From: Crocodylus rhombifer | Lineage: Eukaryota > Chordata > Crocodylia > Crocodylidae | Length of the DNA stretch: 64,000 bases | NCBI GenBank assembly: GCA_038503035.1 | Contig: JAVSML010019116.1 | Coordinates: 1-64,000, forward strand | Direction of reading: 5' to 3' | In this document: positions 17,101 to 51,000 of the stretch, in pieces | How positions within the stretch are numbered: position 1 is the stretch's first letter | How the letters are laid out: every line of letters begins with the position of its first letter | Made by a program: the position numbers and the translations under genes | The notes under the pieces: model-generated | The model's input: the letters and a program-made list of their open reading frames with translations, nothing else | Told to the model about the DNA's origin: nothing | Database searches by the model: none

Positions 17101-20100
17101 ATCGAAAGAGCTTCACTTGTCAGGGACAGGCATCTACCTGCCTCTGCCCCGGGCTGTTGTGATGGTGTAACCCACCCCACTGGGGGTTGGTTGCCATTAG
17201 GGTGGGGGCTGTTGTGCCCCAGTTTTCCCCTTCCCTCTGCTTGGCCCCGAAGTTATCTCAGCCCCTAGGATTCCAGGAAAGTGTTAGAGGGGATAAAACC
17301 TGAGCCCTTTCTCCCTCCATTCCTGTGGCAGAGCCCGGCTGCGAGGCCTGGAAGGACGGTTCGGCCATGTCGTCCAGCTACAGCAGCAGCAGCAATAACA
17401 GCGGGGACTGGAGCTGGGACCTGCCGAGCGACCGCTCGACCCCGTCCACCCCCTCGCCTCCGCTTCCCAGCGATGCTGCCAAGAGCTTCCTGCCGGCTGC
17501 CCCGCTGGATGACAGCACAGAGGAGACCGAGGCGACCCACTTCCTCTTCGGCGATCCCATCCCACGGAAGAGGAAGGTAGGGGGACAGTAGGCGCTGGGA
17601 CAGCGAGGAGGGGATGGGGGCAGCCTGCCAGGGGTCCTCCTTTGGGCTCAGACCACTAGACTGCATCTCCTCCCTCCACCCAGGCTGGGGGTTCATGCCA
17701 CTGCCCCGGCGAGGGCCTTTGGGTGGGGTGGGCTCGGAGGGAGAGCCGTGAGCCTCACTGTCTCTCTCTGCCCCTGCAGAACTCCACCAAGGTCATGTTC
17801 AAGTGCTTGTGGAAGAGCTGCGGCAAGGTGCTCAGCAGCTCCTCAGGGATGCAGAAGCACATCCGGATTGTCCACCTCGGGTAGGTGCAGGGGCCACCGG
17901 CGCCTGGGGAACTTGGAGGGGGTCAGTGGTGTTCCCCCCCGGGCTGTGCCGGAGCTCCCTGCTCTGTTTCCAGCGGGGCTTCCCTCCCTCCTTGGATCTC
18001 TCGCGTGCTTGGCTGGCAGCTCGCAGTGCTCTTCCTGTCTATGTGCCCTCCGCTCTGGAGCCCTGTCTGGCTGGAAAGAGGTCCCGTCGTCTGCTCCTAG
18101 AGAGCTCTGAGCTGTCCGGTCCCCAGGCCCCAGCGCCGCCTCTCTTGCTGCCATTACTGGGTTGTCCAGACGTGTTCACAGCTGCCAGCCCGGGACCCGC
18201 AAAACTAGGGGTTGCCTCCGACAGCCATCTCTGTTTTCCCTCACCCAGCCGGAAAGCTGACCTGGACCAGAGCGATGGTGAGGAGGACTTCTACTACACA
18301 GAGCTGGATGTCAACGTGGACTCCCTGACGGATGGGCTATCCAGCCTCACCCCCGTGTCCCCAACCTCCTCGGTGCCGCCGGCCTTCCCCGTCCCGGAGG
18401 TGCAGAGTGCGCCGCCCCTGCTGGTGAAACCCGAAGTTTCCCTGGTGTCTCCCCTCAGCCACTCGGCGCCCACGAACTTGTGCCACGTCCAAACTGACCA
18501 TGCCTATCAGGTGAGATGCATGGGGAGGGACGGGCTGGGCATGGGTGGGAAGGGCTGGGAGGTCGGGGTCCCTTGGCCAGAGGCAAAACACCTTGGGGCA
18601 TTGCCCAGATCAGCGTGCGGCTGCCTCCTGCCTTGGTCCTGGCTCGGAGGGGCTCTTGGGCAGGGAGTATTTTCCACGTGCTGTTTGTTGATGTTGCTGG
18701 AGCCCCAGACCCTACTCGGCAAACTTCAGTGAGCCTTTGCAGCTGGCACTCATGTCGGCTTCCACCCGTGCAGGCTGGGGAACATCTGTCCTTGCGCCGT
18801 GCTGCAGACTCAGCTGCGTGGCTGTAAACTCTGGTGGGGGTGTTGGCAAGGAGTTGCCTTTGCTGACCACAGGCACCTGTGGGACTCGCCACTGCAAGAA
18901 CCAGCTCGCTCATTCTGGGCTCCTAGCTCTTCTCTCGTTGTTTGGTGGGCTGGAGCGAGGCTGGCCAGTGGTGGGAGGGTTTGCTCCCAGCTTTGTGCCC
19001 ATGAGCAGGGTGGCAGGAGCCTGTCCATGTGATCTGAATCCAGGAGAGTGCTTGTAAAAACGTGAGGGAAGTTGAAGTCCAGCTGAGAGAATAGGCAGAG
19101 GGCATGCGATGGACTCCCGGAGCTGCGCTGGTACCCAGGGTGGATGTTCAAAGGGCTGGTGCTTGCTGGCTGGGCTTGCGGGAGAGGCCTTCCTAGCCTG
19201 CTGCGTGCAGCATTCGGGGGCTGCAGTTCTTTCCTTGCCAGCGCCTGTCACATATCAGTGGGACACCGGAGCAGCAGAACAGCCCCTGTGTAGCCGCACA
19301 CCACTCTGCTTGTGTAAACCCAAACGTCCAGTGTCAGGAAGGGCCCAAGGGCTTTCCATGCCCAGCTCTAGGTGGACTTGGATCCCTCCCTGCCCCACCA
19401 AGGTGCCTCAGAGGCCTGTTTTGAGCACTGCAGGGCACCGTGGCCTGTGAGGCCTGCTCAGCCTAGCCAAGCTGTCGTCCCCTCTGAGCACCTGCCTCTG
19501 CCCCTGCACTGTTCCCACCGGGGCTTTGCCGGGCGTTGCTGCTGCTGGCAAAGTAGCCTGTTGCTTTCTGGGGCCGTGGGGGCAAGACCTTCCCTCCCTC
19601 CCTCCTGCACCCCTTCCCAGCTCTCCGTGGCCACACAGTGCCCAGCTGTCTCATCCTTTGCTGGTTACATTTGTGGCTTTCAGGCAACGGCTCCCGTGAG
19701 CATCTCGGCCGTCTCGAAAACCCTGCCCGGTGGGTTGGGATTCAGCATCTCCTGGCAGCAGCCATCGCCACAGGCACCGGTTGTTTTTAAAGGGTCCCCG
19801 GTGAGTAAGCAGATGGCACCCTCTCCCCTCTGCAGGGCCTGGCTGGCAGGGAAGAGTAGGCCAGGCTTTCTGGCTGGCTGCATTAGTGGGAGGTGCAGGC
19901 ACTGCAGTGAGTGCACCCCTGAGTGGTACAGAGTGCTGCCTGGGACCCGTGGGGCTCCTGTTCTGGGGGTGCCAGCATGGCGTGCACTCGGAGTGGGGTG
20001 CTCTGCGTCCATCAGGGAAGTGCCAGCAGCTTGGCCAGGAGGATTGAGCAGTGGTCAGTGCCCAAACCTGTGAAGGTTTGCATTTTGCCTCTCGGCAGCC

Positions 20101-42000: not shown

Positions 42001-45000
42001 AAAAACTTGGAAGCATATGAAAAATATTTTGTCTGCAACTTCTGTTCAGGTTCTGACACATTTCCAGTCGACATAACCAAATTCAAACTGCCCACTCTCT
42101 TTTCTAGAGCAGACTTCGGAAAAATCTGAATATGGTGACAGACAAAGCTATTTGTGAGAATCTATCACCATTTAGAAGAGAACAAAAAATTTAGCCTGCA
42201 ACTGCTTGGCCACTAACAACGGGTTATACAAGCAAAACATTTGTACTCCCTAGGATCACCATAAACCAATTACTACAGAGTCTAGACAAAGCAGGCAAGC
42301 TATAAGCAGATCAGGTGAGGTCAAGAGGGATTATTTCAGCCCTCTCTCCTTCACTTCCAAGGCTATTTTCACTTCTATTCAACAATTTGAACATGCTACA
42401 TAAATTGTAACCTAATGGGCACCTTCCTCGGGTAGCAGGTTCCAGGTCTAAGGATTCTTTTACAAGTGGTTATAGGAAAATAAAAAATATATATATAAAT
42501 TTTTCTAGAGGTCATAATACTAGGCTGCAAACCCTTTTAAAGATGCAGCGGACCAGGTGTTTGGATCAGCGGTTTTGTGAACAGGAAATATTCATATACA
42601 ACTACAAAGGACCAATCCAGTTGAAATAAGTTATGCATACCTAGTATAGCATGTTAATTTGTCTTCTCCACTGTCTCACAAAAAAGTAATTATATCAATT
42701 GACTGTTTCAATAAGCATAAATAAAATGCACAGGCTTGAAGGATCTTCTCACCTTTGCGAATGCTCACTGCATGCCCAAGTAGCATCAAAACTAAACAAG
42801 CCTAAGGTTAGAAACACTGTTGCTATTCAAAACTGTAAGAACAACAACAAAGGAATTTGTTTCGCATTGCTGTTTGGGAAACAGATCTACAGCAAGTATT
42901 GGAGTTATTCAGAAGAGAAGACGATGCGAAACAGACTGATGGGTCCATATACCTGTTTAGTGCAGAAACCAAAAAAAAAAAAAAAAAAATGCATCTGCTT
43001 GAACTAGAGAGGTTAAGGTAGACAGAATTTTGTTATCAGAGTTGAAATTATTCAGGACGTTAGATTTGATTACTTTCCACTTGTGATAAATGCCACAGAA
43101 GTACACAGCAAATAAATGCCTGCAGTATTTATTCAAAAGGCAAGAATGCCCCTTAATGAATACATTCTTTCCTACATCATGGGGCACCTTAGAGATCTTC
43201 CACCCGTTTATTACCTAAAACCCCTGCATGGATTAAGGTTGTAGAAAGGCAGTGTATGTTTCTGCAAGTGCACAAAATGCAAATTGCAGACTTCAGGTAC
43301 ATGACTACAGCAATTATTCAGGCATTACCATGCACAAATAGCTAATTAGACACCCTGTATATGCTCCTATCACACTTCAAGTGATCAATCACAGCAACTT
43401 GATTTAAAAAAAAAAGATGCATTTGCATATTTAAACCATACTTGCACATCTAAACAGTATAAAAACCAGGCCCACATTTTAAACAAAGGGTTAACATTAT
43501 ATTGAACCATTTACAGCCATCTGTTTATCAACTGAAAGATATGAAAGCCTCAACATTAAATACAGATGAAAAATCTGTTTCTAACAAGGTATGCAGTGTC
43601 CACTATGTTCCTCACATTTACTGCTTTGCTTGTTGATAGTGAACTTTGATGCAGGTAAGATTCAACTTCCCAGACAAGAATTCCTACCCCCCCCCCCCAA
43701 AAAAAAATCAACTTGAGAGCTTGAAAGAGACTGGACATTTTTTAATTGTGTTTTTTTTTGTAATTATAGTTTTATTAAAACTAAATATTTTTGCCAAATA
43801 ACTATGTATTTTATTTCTCCATCTATAAACTCTTGAAAAAATAAAATCACTGTTACAAAAACTATATTACGCCGTTTGAATTCATATTTCACAGTATTGT
43901 GTGTTAAGAATATATGCCTACAGGCACATATTTTGTGAACAACATACCAGCTTTGGTATAGAAACATATTATTTTTCACCTAAACAAAGGTAAAACATAT
44001 GAAATATCTGACCCAAATAAAGAGGTTCATGTTAAAAACATTACAAAGCTCAAGAATAGCAGCATCTGCAACCTAGAAATTGGACCCTGACTGGATCATT
44101 ACTTATGGCGACATAGATAAATAAGTACAAACTAAATCTTTACAAGAAATGAGTAACAAGAAATAGAATTTGTTACAAATATTTGCTGCACTTAAAAACC
44201 TGCATAAATGTATCATTTTACAAATACAGTTATATGAAACTTACACTTTAGAAAATAGATCCACCAATGCTGACACCCCCCCCCCCAAAAAAAAACCCAA
44301 AACAAAACAAAACACAAAAAACCAAACAACCCCCAAAAACCCAGAAACAACCTTTGGCATAATCTCAAGTAATCTCACATACTTCACTAAAGTAATTTTT
44401 CATGGTTTATTTTTAAAATTTTCTCTTTGGTAACAGTTTATTTCTCAGCCCCTTCTCCATCTGAAAAAAGGGACACAATTGTTATTCATTTATTTTACAC
44501 ACTGGCCTTCACTTGATATTTTAGGCTCAAAATAGCAGTTATTACATGGTAAAACTAATAGTTCACATCATATTTCCCCCAACCCCAATACTGGAAAGTG
44601 CAAAGATTGGTTCAAGAGTGCTGTATTGCACTTATGTAAACATCTATTACATCGTACCCGCTGGTCCTTGCCTCTTGCCTAAAGCTATGGGCATTTTTAG
44701 TTTATTGGCTCATTCTTGAAAAACAAAAACAAAAACACCCCCCCCCCCGCCACAACCCAGGAATACAAGACTCACATTTTGATAAGAATTGGTAAAAGTT
44801 TCCAGAATTAACAGCAGATATGGGGGGCGGGGGGGGGGGGGAAGAGGGGGGATAGGGGGAGAGAGAGGAGGGGATGACACCTACTTAACCTTTCTAATAA
44901 AAAATTAGTTTGGAAACTGAAGGTAGAATTGATTAGTATGGTGAATTAATGCAGCTGAGTTCTTTGACAGGAGGGACTAGTATGTCTAGCAAGAATACTA

Positions 45001-48000
45001 CCTAGTCACTTTCACAGAGTAGCAAAAAAAAAAACAAAAAAAAAAACGACAAATGAAAATCAAAAAACAGTAGCTCAGCCAGGTCAGTAAGAGGAGAATC
45101 AACTTGATTATAAAATAGAAGTATTCAGTAATCAATAATGGGGAAGAAATTATAGGGACCAAAGAGTTTAATATGGCTTTGCTGCCATTTCACTTAAAAT
45201 GTGCATATGATTATACAGGAACAGACTGTCAAATGGATGGGTAGTTTGCTCAGATGCAGTGTGGGTGGAAGCCTGGGGGGCTGTCAACCCAGTTGGCTTC
45301 CTGATCTAGAGCCATCCAGTCCTGGCTCAATTTAAGAGCTGTGGCTCTAATTGAAACCAGCAGGCGATTGGGCGTGGGGGAACTTTGCTCCAGAATGTGT
45401 GCCCTGACAGTTCACAACATGGGGATGGGGGCAGTCGATACAAGGGGTGGTGGGGCCACCTCTGCAGCTTTCCCAAGGGGACAGCTCCTTTTCCCAAGGA
45501 ATTCTCCACTGCCTGCCCCACTCCTGGAGACACAGGGTGGAGAATTTCTTATGAAAATAAATCGTCCACTTCATTTTAAAATAAAATGAACCAAAAACTT
45601 TGATAGGGCTCTAATGCTGTATGTGAAACAATAAGCATTTCCCTACTGTGTTTTTTCCCACCTGGAGCAAGTCACAGAATCACCATTCCTAAAGGGTGGC
45701 CATGGCTTCCTAGGTTCTTTTGACATGACAGAAGAACCAACACACAAAGAAAGCATCCTAGGGTGTAATATCTCAGCACCAAACTAAGCTGCTAACAACT
45801 TGCATATTCTGCAAAGACCATTTGAAAAGCAGTTTTACTGAGCTCTGAACTATCATAATTGTTCATTTAGCTTCGCTCTGTTTGTAGGCAAACAAACAGC
45901 AAGCTGCCAGTCAAGAAAAAGAAAGCAGTTCACAGCTCTCAAAAAACTGAGCCAAAGTAATAAATGGGTGCTACAATAAGTCTTCAATTTTCCAGTAGCA
46001 TCCAACTGTCAAACTCCACTATAGCTTATAAGCTATTTTAAATACAACAGGATCTATTTTAACATGCATTCAATGTAGCCAACTCCATTACAATTATAAA
46101 ACAAACCAATAAGATCAAAAGACTTAAAGAACCTACCCTCCTGCAAGCAACATTTTATCCATATATATGTATAGCTCTCTAAAAACTCCAGGAAGCACAG
46201 CAGCATACAGGTAATTGGTACAACCTAAATATGTTCTCTTAACTACAGAGTTTCTTCAGAAATCTTGGCCCCATAAATAACTTATGGTACTGGGCAGTAA
46301 AGTGTTTTCATAGCTCTTAACCCTGAGATGGAAGAAACAAAAGGAATGGATAGCCAAATGGACCAGGAATCAGGAGACCTAGGTTCTGCCGGTGACCTTT
46401 GGGTAAGCTTGTCCACACTTGACAGATGGGAACTATGACACTGATCTCCTTTGTAAAGCACTCAGATTCACTGATGAAAAGCCAGAGTATTCATGTAGGT
46501 GAATACTACAGCTTAGTAGTATTGCAGCTACAAGCGAACCAAAACACCAATCTACTATCCAAAATATTCTTACACAAAATCGCACGTCGGCTGTAATTAG
46601 ACATTTTAGATTTGTGACATCTGCAATGGAAAGAGCTCATGACCAATCTGCCCACCACTTGGAATTTACTGTGTCATTACAGTCCACCCAACGGTAACCA
46701 TGTTGGCTGCAAGTAATAGTACAGCAGTCTACTGTTCCCAGCTTATGTAATTTAAAAGAAATAATTGCCTAAACCAGGCATCCCTCATGGTCTTTTAGAA
46801 ATGTTTGTAACTGTAGCTTTACTAAACATTTTCAGATTCCTCATTTTGATCCGTATCATCTAGAAATTCTTCTACTGTTGGGTGGGTGGAGCCCAGATAG
46901 CACATTTTCATATGAGTAGTGAGGTTTTTTTGTGTACCAAAGCCCTTGCCACAAAAGAGACACACAAAAGTATGTTCATTTGAGTGCACAGATGTAAGGT
47001 GCCGGTTTAAGTCAGTCTTGTCTCGAAACATTTTTAAACAGTTCGGACACTGCACCTTCTTGCAGTTGAAGTGGATTGTCTTTTCATGCCGATCCATGTT
47101 GGACTTCAGTGTGAAGCTTGCAGGACACTTAGAGCACTGGAAGCGGGCAAACTGACCATGGGGGATATGATCAGCAAATTCAGTGACTATCGGTCTAGAA
47201 CAGTCAATGAAATCAAAAGGCAGTATCACAGATAAAGCGTGCTCATGGATGTGCTCCTCTAGCTCTTCAGCACACTCAAAAGCTCTCCAGCAGAAACCAC
47301 AAGTCAGTCCAGAGTCCCAGAACAGGCCTTCATTAACTAAAACCACATCTTCAGATCTTGAGATGTTTCTCTCTAAAACAGAAACACATACACAAATCAA
47401 TGACTTCTAATACAAGATTACACCTATTTTTAAATGATATTGACCTCTCTATTTACCTGCGTCAGAGCTGCCAAACTGCCAAAATGCTAAGAATCCATCA
47501 CAGGTGACCTGCAAATGAACAGCGCAATTAAGTTAAAATGAATGTATACAACAATGCTTCTATATGCTAATATCTAGATTTCCAATTCACTCACCTGTCA
47601 ACCCTCCTCCATCCCCCCCACTACTTGTCTAATGGAAACCCAACATTATGTTTTGCAACAAGTATTTCCTTTTCTACAAAGCTTCCACTCTGGACAACAT
47701 TTACTTACTTACATCAAGAGTTTGGGTGCATAAAGACAGGGCCCTAAAGCTCATGGATAGGCTATCAAATGAAAATGCCTGTTATAAAAGTGGCTCAAAT
47801 AAATGTTTAGTGTTGCTGAGAACGTGTAGGCCCCATTTAACCTTGGGGATGAAACATTTCTGCTTTTATTTAGAAGCCAACACAGGACTGTGGGTACCTG
47901 ACTGTAAACAGTAAAATTGAAGACTGTGCCCTTACCCCTTTACTGCTATTTCTGCTTTCCACAGAGAAACACTCATCTCAAGCAAAAACAGCCTCTGTTC

Positions 48001-51000
48001 AGTTTCCTTCACATGAAACTGTCTGGCATTACTGATTCTAAACCAATAAATAAGAGTAAAGCTTTTCATAAGTAATTTCCACTATGCCACTGCCTGGCAG
48101 ATGGTATGGCTTGGACTGGTCCGTCAGATTGTGGAGGAGTTATTAACCTTTCTTACTATTCAATTTTTCTAAGGTGACTGCAAAGGAAGAGGCTCTGCTT
48201 CTCTCCATTTGTTTAACGAGGCAAATTCCTTACTTAAAAATATTTGAGATGAAAGCCCCAAGATGAGAAACTTTTATATTTAGATAAAGCCATTCCTCCA
48301 TATATCCATATTCAGGGCAAGGGAAAGAAAAAGTGCATTTTGGATAGTTGTGTTTTCAACTATATTTATGCTGCATCTGAACTCTCCAGCACAATGGCTT
48401 AATAACTGTTTTATAATAAAAAAATATAGACATGCAATTTTTGTAAAAAATATTGTTCAGGATAAAAGTTCCATTGAGGTAAGGGGGAAAAAGGAGGGAG
48501 AGAGGGGGAGGAAAGGGAGCTGCAGAAAAGGTTAGGAAAGTGCTAGCTCTCCAGCCCAACAGCAGAACTGGATATCCCCCTCCCTACCCAAAATTTTAAA
48601 TATAGTATATTTTGAAAACAACTAATCGGTGAGAATCAGCTACAGGTATAAAATATTGTTCATCAGAAATTCTCCTGCCAGGGATAATTTGTTTCAAATA
48701 ACTTTAAACTTTAAAAAATGACTGCAATCATCTCTTGTTCTTACCTGAGTGGAGGAAGATGCGTCTCCTTTTATCCTGGTTTCTGGTGAAATGTCACCAG
48801 AACAGGAGATCTCAGGGGGGCTCTGAGTGGCAAGGTGTGATGAAGACAGCAGGGGAGATGGTGCTTCCACTTTGCCATCAAATTCGCCCCTTGAACGATT
48901 CAAGTTGGTGCCAGGCCCTGAGGAACACAGGAAACGAATCTCACCCACGTGAACTAGCACCAGCTGGTGGTTTTAAAAAAGGCCCTGAAAAGGCAGTGAA
49001 TGAGCACTTGCAGTTTATCTTCTCTCAGTGGGAGGGAATGCAGCAGTGTAGGGATGCCAGCCTTTTTTTTTTCCTTTTTTAAACTAGCCTCCCCACCCAG
49101 AATGCCAGTTGTCTGTATGTGATGCATGTGGTGAGCGTTACAACTCAAGGCTGCAAAATGGTCACTAAAAAGAGTTACATGGGAGAAAGAAGTATAAGGC
49201 AGCGTAAATAACAGAACTATTACATCTCCGAAACACACCACTTTCAACAAGTACTACGTGAAATATATACATCTAAGCTTGCCATTGAAGATGCATCAGT
49301 TATCTATACAATTTGCTTTTAGAAGTTTTTTTGTCAAAGCTTTTAAGCTCACTATTAACCTGGGGGGTTAAATACCCTAGGGTTATTTATTTATATATAT
49401 ACTTCCTCCTAGAACACAAAGTGCCTTACAAAGGTGAGAAAGTTTTTTCCTTAATTTATATTTATGAGAATACAGAAGCAAAGGAAACTTGTTCAAGGCT
49501 GCACAATTAAACCTTAAAACAGTTACACTCTCTAAACCTCACTTGCAGTTTAAAGGGGGAAAAATGACTGGCCAGGCAAAGTATTTGTACACTTCTGCTC
49601 TCTCTGAGACAGCAGCTAAATGGTACATTTTATACTGTAAGCAAAAAATATACTTAGAAAAATAGTGGAAGCGTAAGTATAAGTAACATTTTATGGAAGA
49701 TGAATTGCTTTAAGTTTAAAGCTGTTAATTAAACCTTAAAAGCCGCATTCAATTTTTTGCCTCCTTCAGCTACAAAAATAAACATAGGATTTATTAAAAG
49801 AAAGTAGGAAAAATAACCAGGAACAAAAGTATATTTATATTTAAACAGGATATTACTACAGATTAAGCTGTAAACAAGATGATGATTAAAATAATTTTTT
49901 GTCCTAATGACTTTTCATTGTCATTACAGAGTAATTCAGTTCAAACTTATGTGCAAGATAGCAAACAAGTCATGTAAAAGTGTCAGTCATTTCATAATCA
50001 AGTTAAAATACCTGCACATGTTGAGCTGCATAGTATGAACACCTATTTCAGAAATGCCCATTATTTCACATGCCACCATAATCAGAATGCAATTGAAATA
50101 TTCAAATGAAAAACTTCTTAAATTTTAAGCAACCCAATAATCTATTGTTTTATTCGATGCCAAAAAGGTCAGGTTTCTCAACCCTGTATCATCACATACT
50201 CCCACTGCTCTCTCAATTTTTGGTCTATATGAAACAGCAGTGCTACTCTTGCTCTGTATTTGGTTTTGCCTCTGCTGTTTTGATCACCTATATTAAAGTC
50301 TTTTTATTATAGCCAAAGATGATAACACTATTTTAAACTTCTTTTCCAACTGTTTCAGCTTAACAATAAATCGCAGAATGGAAGAGGACAAAAGGTGCCA
50401 AGAAAACCTAAAGACAGGCAATAACAATACGAAATCCATGAGTCAATGGCTCCAGTTCTAAAACAGGTGGATGTTTTATCCAACTTACACTGCCACAAAT
50501 GTAATTTCCTTCTGAACACACATCCTTCTAACTGAACAAGAAATTCAATATATTTAATGAGAATTAAATATTCAGGGAAAAGCAGCACAAAATTCAAGTC
50601 TGATCATTAAGACTGCCTGTGAAGCCAAACATTGGAGGCTAATTACTGTTCTGATTTAGTCTTACAATGCTGATTTGGTCCTATTTATATTGCAACTATA
50701 CAGTGGGACTCCAGACTGTGTACGGGAGGTTCAATCCGGAGACTTAAGCTTATCACAGAGTAAAAACAAGAGGACTTGGCTTACATAATTCCCTTGTTAG
50801 CCCTCAGAGGAAGCTACACTTCATATTCGGCTCCTACTAAACAGCTGCCCACTTTTCAAACCAAGGGTAAATGTTCATAAATGACCACCAGTAAGTTTTT
50901 GGTAGGGGAAAAAGTACATAGCCATTGACAGTGGGAATGGAGGACATTCAGCACAACACAAGAACAGTGATTATTTTGAAAACAGCCATTAAAAGACACT

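Follow-up and report, generated by a model that had tools for sequence, protein, structure and literature searches.

Crocodylus rhombifer ZBTB46 as a candidate two-headed gene: a probable alternative last-exon block encoding a second zinc-finger array under one BTB domain

ZBTB46, also named BTBD4 or zDC, is a marker of dendritic cells in people and mice. We analyzed a stretch of 64,000 nucleotides from Crocodylus rhombifer (contig JAVSML010019116.1, positions 1 to 64,000; hereafter the window), which holds part of this gene. The window very probably contains an ancient alternative last-exon block of ZBTB46, consisting of three exons (A, B and C; the cassette) that would place a second finger array under the same BTB domain. 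The best reading of the available models is that ZBTB46 can combine its single BTB domain with either of two DNA-binding domains and that this organization is about as old as the jawed vertebrates. An earlier note on this DNA had proposed that one BTB domain is joined to two different DNA-binding domains. Public gene models across jawed vertebrates support this proposal, and the interpretation, judged from gene models and conservation, appears to be right and even understated.

The cassette lies on the minus strand, as do all ZBTB46 exons described here, within the 17,868-base intron between exon 3 and exon 4. Exon 3 (56262-55981; 282 nt, ending in phase 1) is common to the canonical and cassette forms, and its protein sequence is 100% identical over exon 3 to that of the Alligator sinensis protein P0001. 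Exon A (48917-48745; 173 nt) encodes a linker and is entered in phase 1 and left in phase 0, exon B (47508-47457) spans 52 nt, and exon C (47372-46822; 551 nt including the stop codon TAG) is the terminal coding exon. The splice sites from A to C read, in order and with each exon boundary marked by a slash, ...TTCCTCAG/GG, CAG/GTAAGA, ...TTTGCAG/GT, CAG/GTAAAT and ...GTTTTAG/AG. The sequence thus confirms what the earlier note had described, namely three exons at these positions with canonical splice sites and phases that fit each other and exon 3, open until the stop of C. The canonical end of the gene consists of exon 4 (38112-37937), which encodes the first canonical fingers and is entered in phase 1, and exon 5 with its stop (33045-32659).

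What would precede exon 3 in a cassette transcript? A genome search located the BTB-encoding exon 2 ~31 kb upstream, at about 87.0-88.0 kb of this contig and likewise on the minus strand; it ends in phase 1 with a GTAAG donor. Exons 2-3-A-B-C form a single open frame of 664 amino acids without stops, and exons 2-3-4-5 form the canonical frame of 593 amino acids, also without stops. The segment from exon 3 through A and B to C is open up to the stop of C, and A to C contribute 258 residues. Splicing of exon 3 straight to C produces an immediate stop, omission of A (exon 3-B-C) shifts the frame and omission of B alone also does so, given the exon lengths modulo 3. A and B together measure 225 nt and are frame-neutral.

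Exon C encodes three C2H2 fingers and a final C2HC finger (F1-F4 in order), identified by inspection and followed by an acidic tail. Pfam assigns zf-C2H2 to three stretches of exon C (3.5e-16), and an AlphaFold2 model of its 182 residues, built with an alignment of 29 sequences, displays four beta-beta-alpha units. The mean predicted local distance difference test score (pLDDT) is 70 and the predicted template modeling score is 0.31. Ten-residue pLDDT means reach 81-92 across residues 81 to 160 (F2-F4), with 73 in block 71-80 at the start of F2; they are 83, 86 and 69 near F1 and below 50 at both ends. The finger composition put forward in the earlier note thus holds, as does its length of about 258 residues from A to C. 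The note's further statement that these fingers are unrelated to the canonical ones stands insofar as only generic finger similarity was detected, but a match of 30% over 69 amino acids (E 1e-6, against one sequence) remains. By inspection, the helix residues differ between the two arrays, and a PDB search returned generic finger proteins among the best 60 of 99 rows.

A chance origin of the exon C frame was rejected. This frame is the longest on either strand of the intron, with 194 codons and four finger patterns. Among 200 first-order Markov resamples of the 17,868-base intron, read on both strands, two contained an open frame of at least 182 amino acids and none contained at least three finger patterns. 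A recent retrocopy was also rejected, given that introns are present and exon C has a single match in this animal's genome. Likewise, a paralogous cassette elsewhere in the genome was rejected, given that off-contig matches to the cassette reached E 3e-9 or weaker, like generic finger arrays (query P0001; 68 of 974 candidates scored).

Public databases already list a protein of this composition (BTB, exon 3, A, B and C) among the predicted isoforms of ZBTB46. From three protein searches came 65, 76 and 107 rows, which represent 196 different proteins. Classified by motif rules, 99 of these unite BTB and the common linker with F2 and F4 and have no canonical fingers; the returned proteins are cluster representatives that include some species several times (three each for Sarcophilus and Phascolarctos), and 99 proteins do not equal 99 species. 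When the window's own partial protein is added (197 in total), 43 more carry the cassette without the full motif set, 35 of them unnamed; 14 are other finger proteins with none of the motifs; and the remaining 41, including the window's protein, are partial, composite or fused models. A motif of the exon 3 end occurs in 98 of the 99 (H[ST]LS in 89 and PKG[PS]G in 9) and is absent from P0005. Pfam identifies the BTB zinc-finger architecture in P0002 (BTB 5.9e-27, zf-C2H2 1.4e-10) and P0154 (BTB 3.9e-26, zf-C2H2 4.8e-10).

The full form is found in cartilaginous fishes (Pristiophorus, Heptranchias, Heterodontus, Mustelus, Stegostoma, Rhinoraja and Leucoraja), in ray-finned fishes (bichir, sturgeon, paddlefish, gar, bowfin and many teleosts) and in tetrapods (caecilians, platypus, echidna, marsupials, lizards, tuatara, turtles, birds and Alligator sinensis). 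Frogs contributed a single row, P0180, and this is an unrelated finger protein. No placental-mammal or lamprey row is named among the 196 proteins, of which 35 are unnamed and whose names are shortened, and this absence is not proof of loss. In two short entries that resemble teleost sequences, P0103 and P0107 (contigs of 1221 and 1197 bases), A-B-C read unbroken by eye, a continuity that fits spliced RNA if their source code, lgn, denotes assembled reads, as we assumed. Three further entries (P0066, P0075 and P0111) seem to keep an intron before C.

Conservation was assessed in 154 rows, obtained from 172 rows that carry FTLKSN (window included) by subtraction of 18 in which canonical fingers are present as well. 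Between 150 and 154 of these 154 rows retain the zinc ligands of F2-F4, and six F2 columns are invariant because the rows were chosen by FTLKSN. At helix positions -1, 2, 3 and 6, the residues D, T, D and R of F3 are kept in 154, 153, 154 and 151 rows and the residues T, K, N and T of F4 in 144, 151, 149 and 132 rows, respectively. In F1, the ligands are retained (151 to 154 rows), whereas the helix residues vary. In comparison with the window, the BTB domain is 89-100% identical in 12 proteins, the garter snake included. F2-F4 are 86% identical in A. sinensis, 82-87% in six other tetrapods (snake excluded), 53% in the garter snake and 65-69% in three ray-finned fishes and a sawshark, in which A+B fall to 25-36%. 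Five amniotes (Caretta, Dromaius, Sphenodon, platypus and Dromiciops) exhibit a graded pattern of 100% for BTB, 82-87% for F2-F4, 60-80% for A+B and 41-64% for the F1-F2 linker. The canonical fingers evolve slower still, with 97% identity to the window in a turtle, 99% in a kiwi, 93% in a gar and 88% in a Varanus model. In a midpoint-rooted tree of 64 rows, hand-picked from the named ones, each of nine vertebrate groups forms one block; the eight group changes equal the minimum of eight, and none of 200 shuffles matched this low figure. Support for the lepidosaur block is only 91/87. This pattern is the picture that vertical descent from a jawed-vertebrate ancestor would give.

Is the cassette a gene of its own? 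A-B-C could constitute a nested gene with its own promoter in the ZBTB46 intron, which databases have fused with ZBTB46 on the same strand. Whale shark P0181 is annotated with a different first exon and no BTB domain, and some fish entries are separate proteins under other names (for example, P0071, P0095 and P0096), as such a gene would predict. However, the phase of A fits exons 2 and 3, and P0181 itself retains exon 3. We regard the nested gene as very unlikely because A, B and C of the window lack an in-frame ATG ahead of finger 2 (some relatives have a Met in A) and because 99 returned proteins unite the BTB domain with the cassette. The whale shark (Rhincodon typus) entry, of 406 amino acids, reads from its other first exon into exon 3-A-B-C.

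ZBTB46 is annotated with up to four C-terminal arrangements because, in addition to the A-B-C and canonical ends, gene models include A-B and part of C as inserts. Given that A and B sum to 225 nt, they can be inserted before exon 4, and eight returned proteins from the painted turtle, kiwis and the girdled lizard (P0055-P0061 and P0063) exhibit this join. Nine bird representatives (P0040, P0043, P0046-P0051 and P0062) splice from within C to exon 4, so that F1-F2 precede the canonical fingers; the join was read in these representatives, whose clusters sum to 312 member sequences. The bird join apparently uses a GC donor, and the same possible donor exists inside exon C of the window, with 47064 as the last exonic base and GC at 47063-47062. 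Exon 3 (282 nt) is skipped in P0017, P0080 and P0047. These forms raise an alternative in which the block acts mainly as an insert (A-B, or A-B plus F1-F2) before exons 4 and 5 and thus builds one longer DNA-binding domain. Both joins stay in frame in the window, as this alternative would require. Insert-only use nevertheless leaves unexplained why forms ending with C conserve F3 and F4 all the way from sharks to marsupials, and the bird join seems to depend on the GC donor. We therefore consider it improbable that insertion is the main role of the block, and we favor its use as an alternative last-exon block.

Several observations weigh against an alternative last-exon block. The cassette isoforms are database predictions, and three of them (P0137, P0143 and P0145) contain both finger arrays, which suggests that predictors can misjoin neighboring exons. 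The short fish contigs P0103 and P0107 span A-B-C and stop short of the exon 3-A join. Of the candidate poly(A) signals after C (AGTAAA at 46670, ATTAAA at 45172 and AATAAA at 44706), the nearest AATAAA is 2.1 kb past C and only the AGTAAA and ATTAAA variants are closer. The FTLKSN selection fixes six columns of F2 in the conservation counts, and many rows are close kin and hence not independent. In addition, some copies are damaged. In A. sinensis P0001, which belongs to the 99, Ser replaces the first Cys of F4 and a frameshift follows a run of A; this may be a real lesion, a polymorphism, decay or an assembly error. The last fingers are damaged in pheasant P0045, another of the 99, garter snake (Thamnophis) P0052 lacks some ligands and its end, and the Varanus P0065 model ends prematurely. 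The two squamate cases raise the possibility that the second domain was lost repeatedly in this group. Together with the absence of a named placental-mammal match, the lesions of P0001, P0052 and P0065 could also point to a former isoform that is now decaying in crocodilians. The window copy, however, is intact in its ligands, splice sites and frame, and we give such decay little credence.

How would an alternative last-exon block operate? Exon 3 would face two rival acceptors of equal phase, A at 7 kb and exon 4 at 18 kb. Choice of A over exon 4 would commit the transcript to end after C, provided that an intronic poly(A) site is used. Cleavage and polyadenylation inside the same intron would then yield the 664-residue protein, in which F1 to F4 replace the canonical array, and, through the common BTB domain, the same partners would be recruited to different DNA sites. 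We infer that this crocodile produces the protein, that F2-F4 bind target sites on DNA and that cell type regulates which last exons are chosen. By the finger code, the helix residues at -1, 2, 3 and 6 (L-S-N-R in F2, D-T-D-R in F3 and T-K-N-T in F4) would predict a binding core near NAN-GCC-GAN.

Elsewhere in the window, an open frame on the plus strand (17752-18732) resembles SLC2A4RG, the expected ZBTB46 neighbor; Pfam gave no match for it. A transfer RNA scan of the sequence found none, and a repeat scan found short chance-like pairs only.

A common BTB region with alternative ends is the plan of the insect genes broad and fruitless. In Drosophila lola and mod(mdg4), common BTB exons continue into alternative C-terminal exons, the majority of which encode zinc fingers; for lola, 20 forms are reported, 17 of them differing in their C2H2 ends, and C2HC fingers are also mentioned (PMC1947980, PMC11426971). 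At the level of gene models, ZBTB46 follows a lola-like plan of common BTB exons and alternative finger exons, and this likeness is analogous rather than homologous. The insect genes have many ends, a TTK-type BTB domain and, in lola and mod(mdg4), trans-splicing, whereas ZBTB46 has two main ends whose exons lie in cis on a single strand, an anatomy that does not call for trans-splicing. Among vertebrate genes, PATZ1 belongs to the BTB-ZF family, and ZFP64, which is not known to have a BTB domain, is said to have isoforms with different finger sets. One study predicts that intronic polyadenylation forms of PATZ1 alter its finger array (PMC5928244). The PATZ1 forms lose fingers (from seven to four or five), whereas the ZBTB46 array would be swapped for another.

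The human ZBTB46 fingers are placed in exon 4, and a single set is spoken of, in the available part of one source (PMC13421333). The canonical and cassette forms share the gene, the BTB domain and exons 2-3 and differ in their ends, exons 4-5 in the former and A-B-C in the latter. In the open-licence papers searched, we found no description of a ZBTB46 cassette isoform and no vertebrate BTB gene with swapped finger domains. Thus, the cassette isoform has been annotated by pipelines and is apparently undescribed, and it apparently represents a new vertebrate variant of the insect plan.

We think it likely that the ancestral jawed-vertebrate ZBTB46 was two-headed, with one BTB domain and two exchangeable DNA-binding domains, that many lineages keep both and that placental mammals, including mouse and human, lost one. 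If so, half of the original function of ZBTB46 has never been looked at, since it was the placental gene that was studied. In chicken, according to the available part of one study that leaves isoforms unnamed, ZBTB46 is found in XCR1+ dendritic cells and, unlike in mouse, in putative plasmacytoid ones (PMC10634274). Because the cassette sits in a gene used to define classical dendritic cells, ZBTB46 biology in chicken, fish and marsupials may depart from mouse-based predictions. Given that the two forms should differ in their 3' ends, existing single-cell libraries of 3' ends, from chicken or fish, could reveal which cells use which end.

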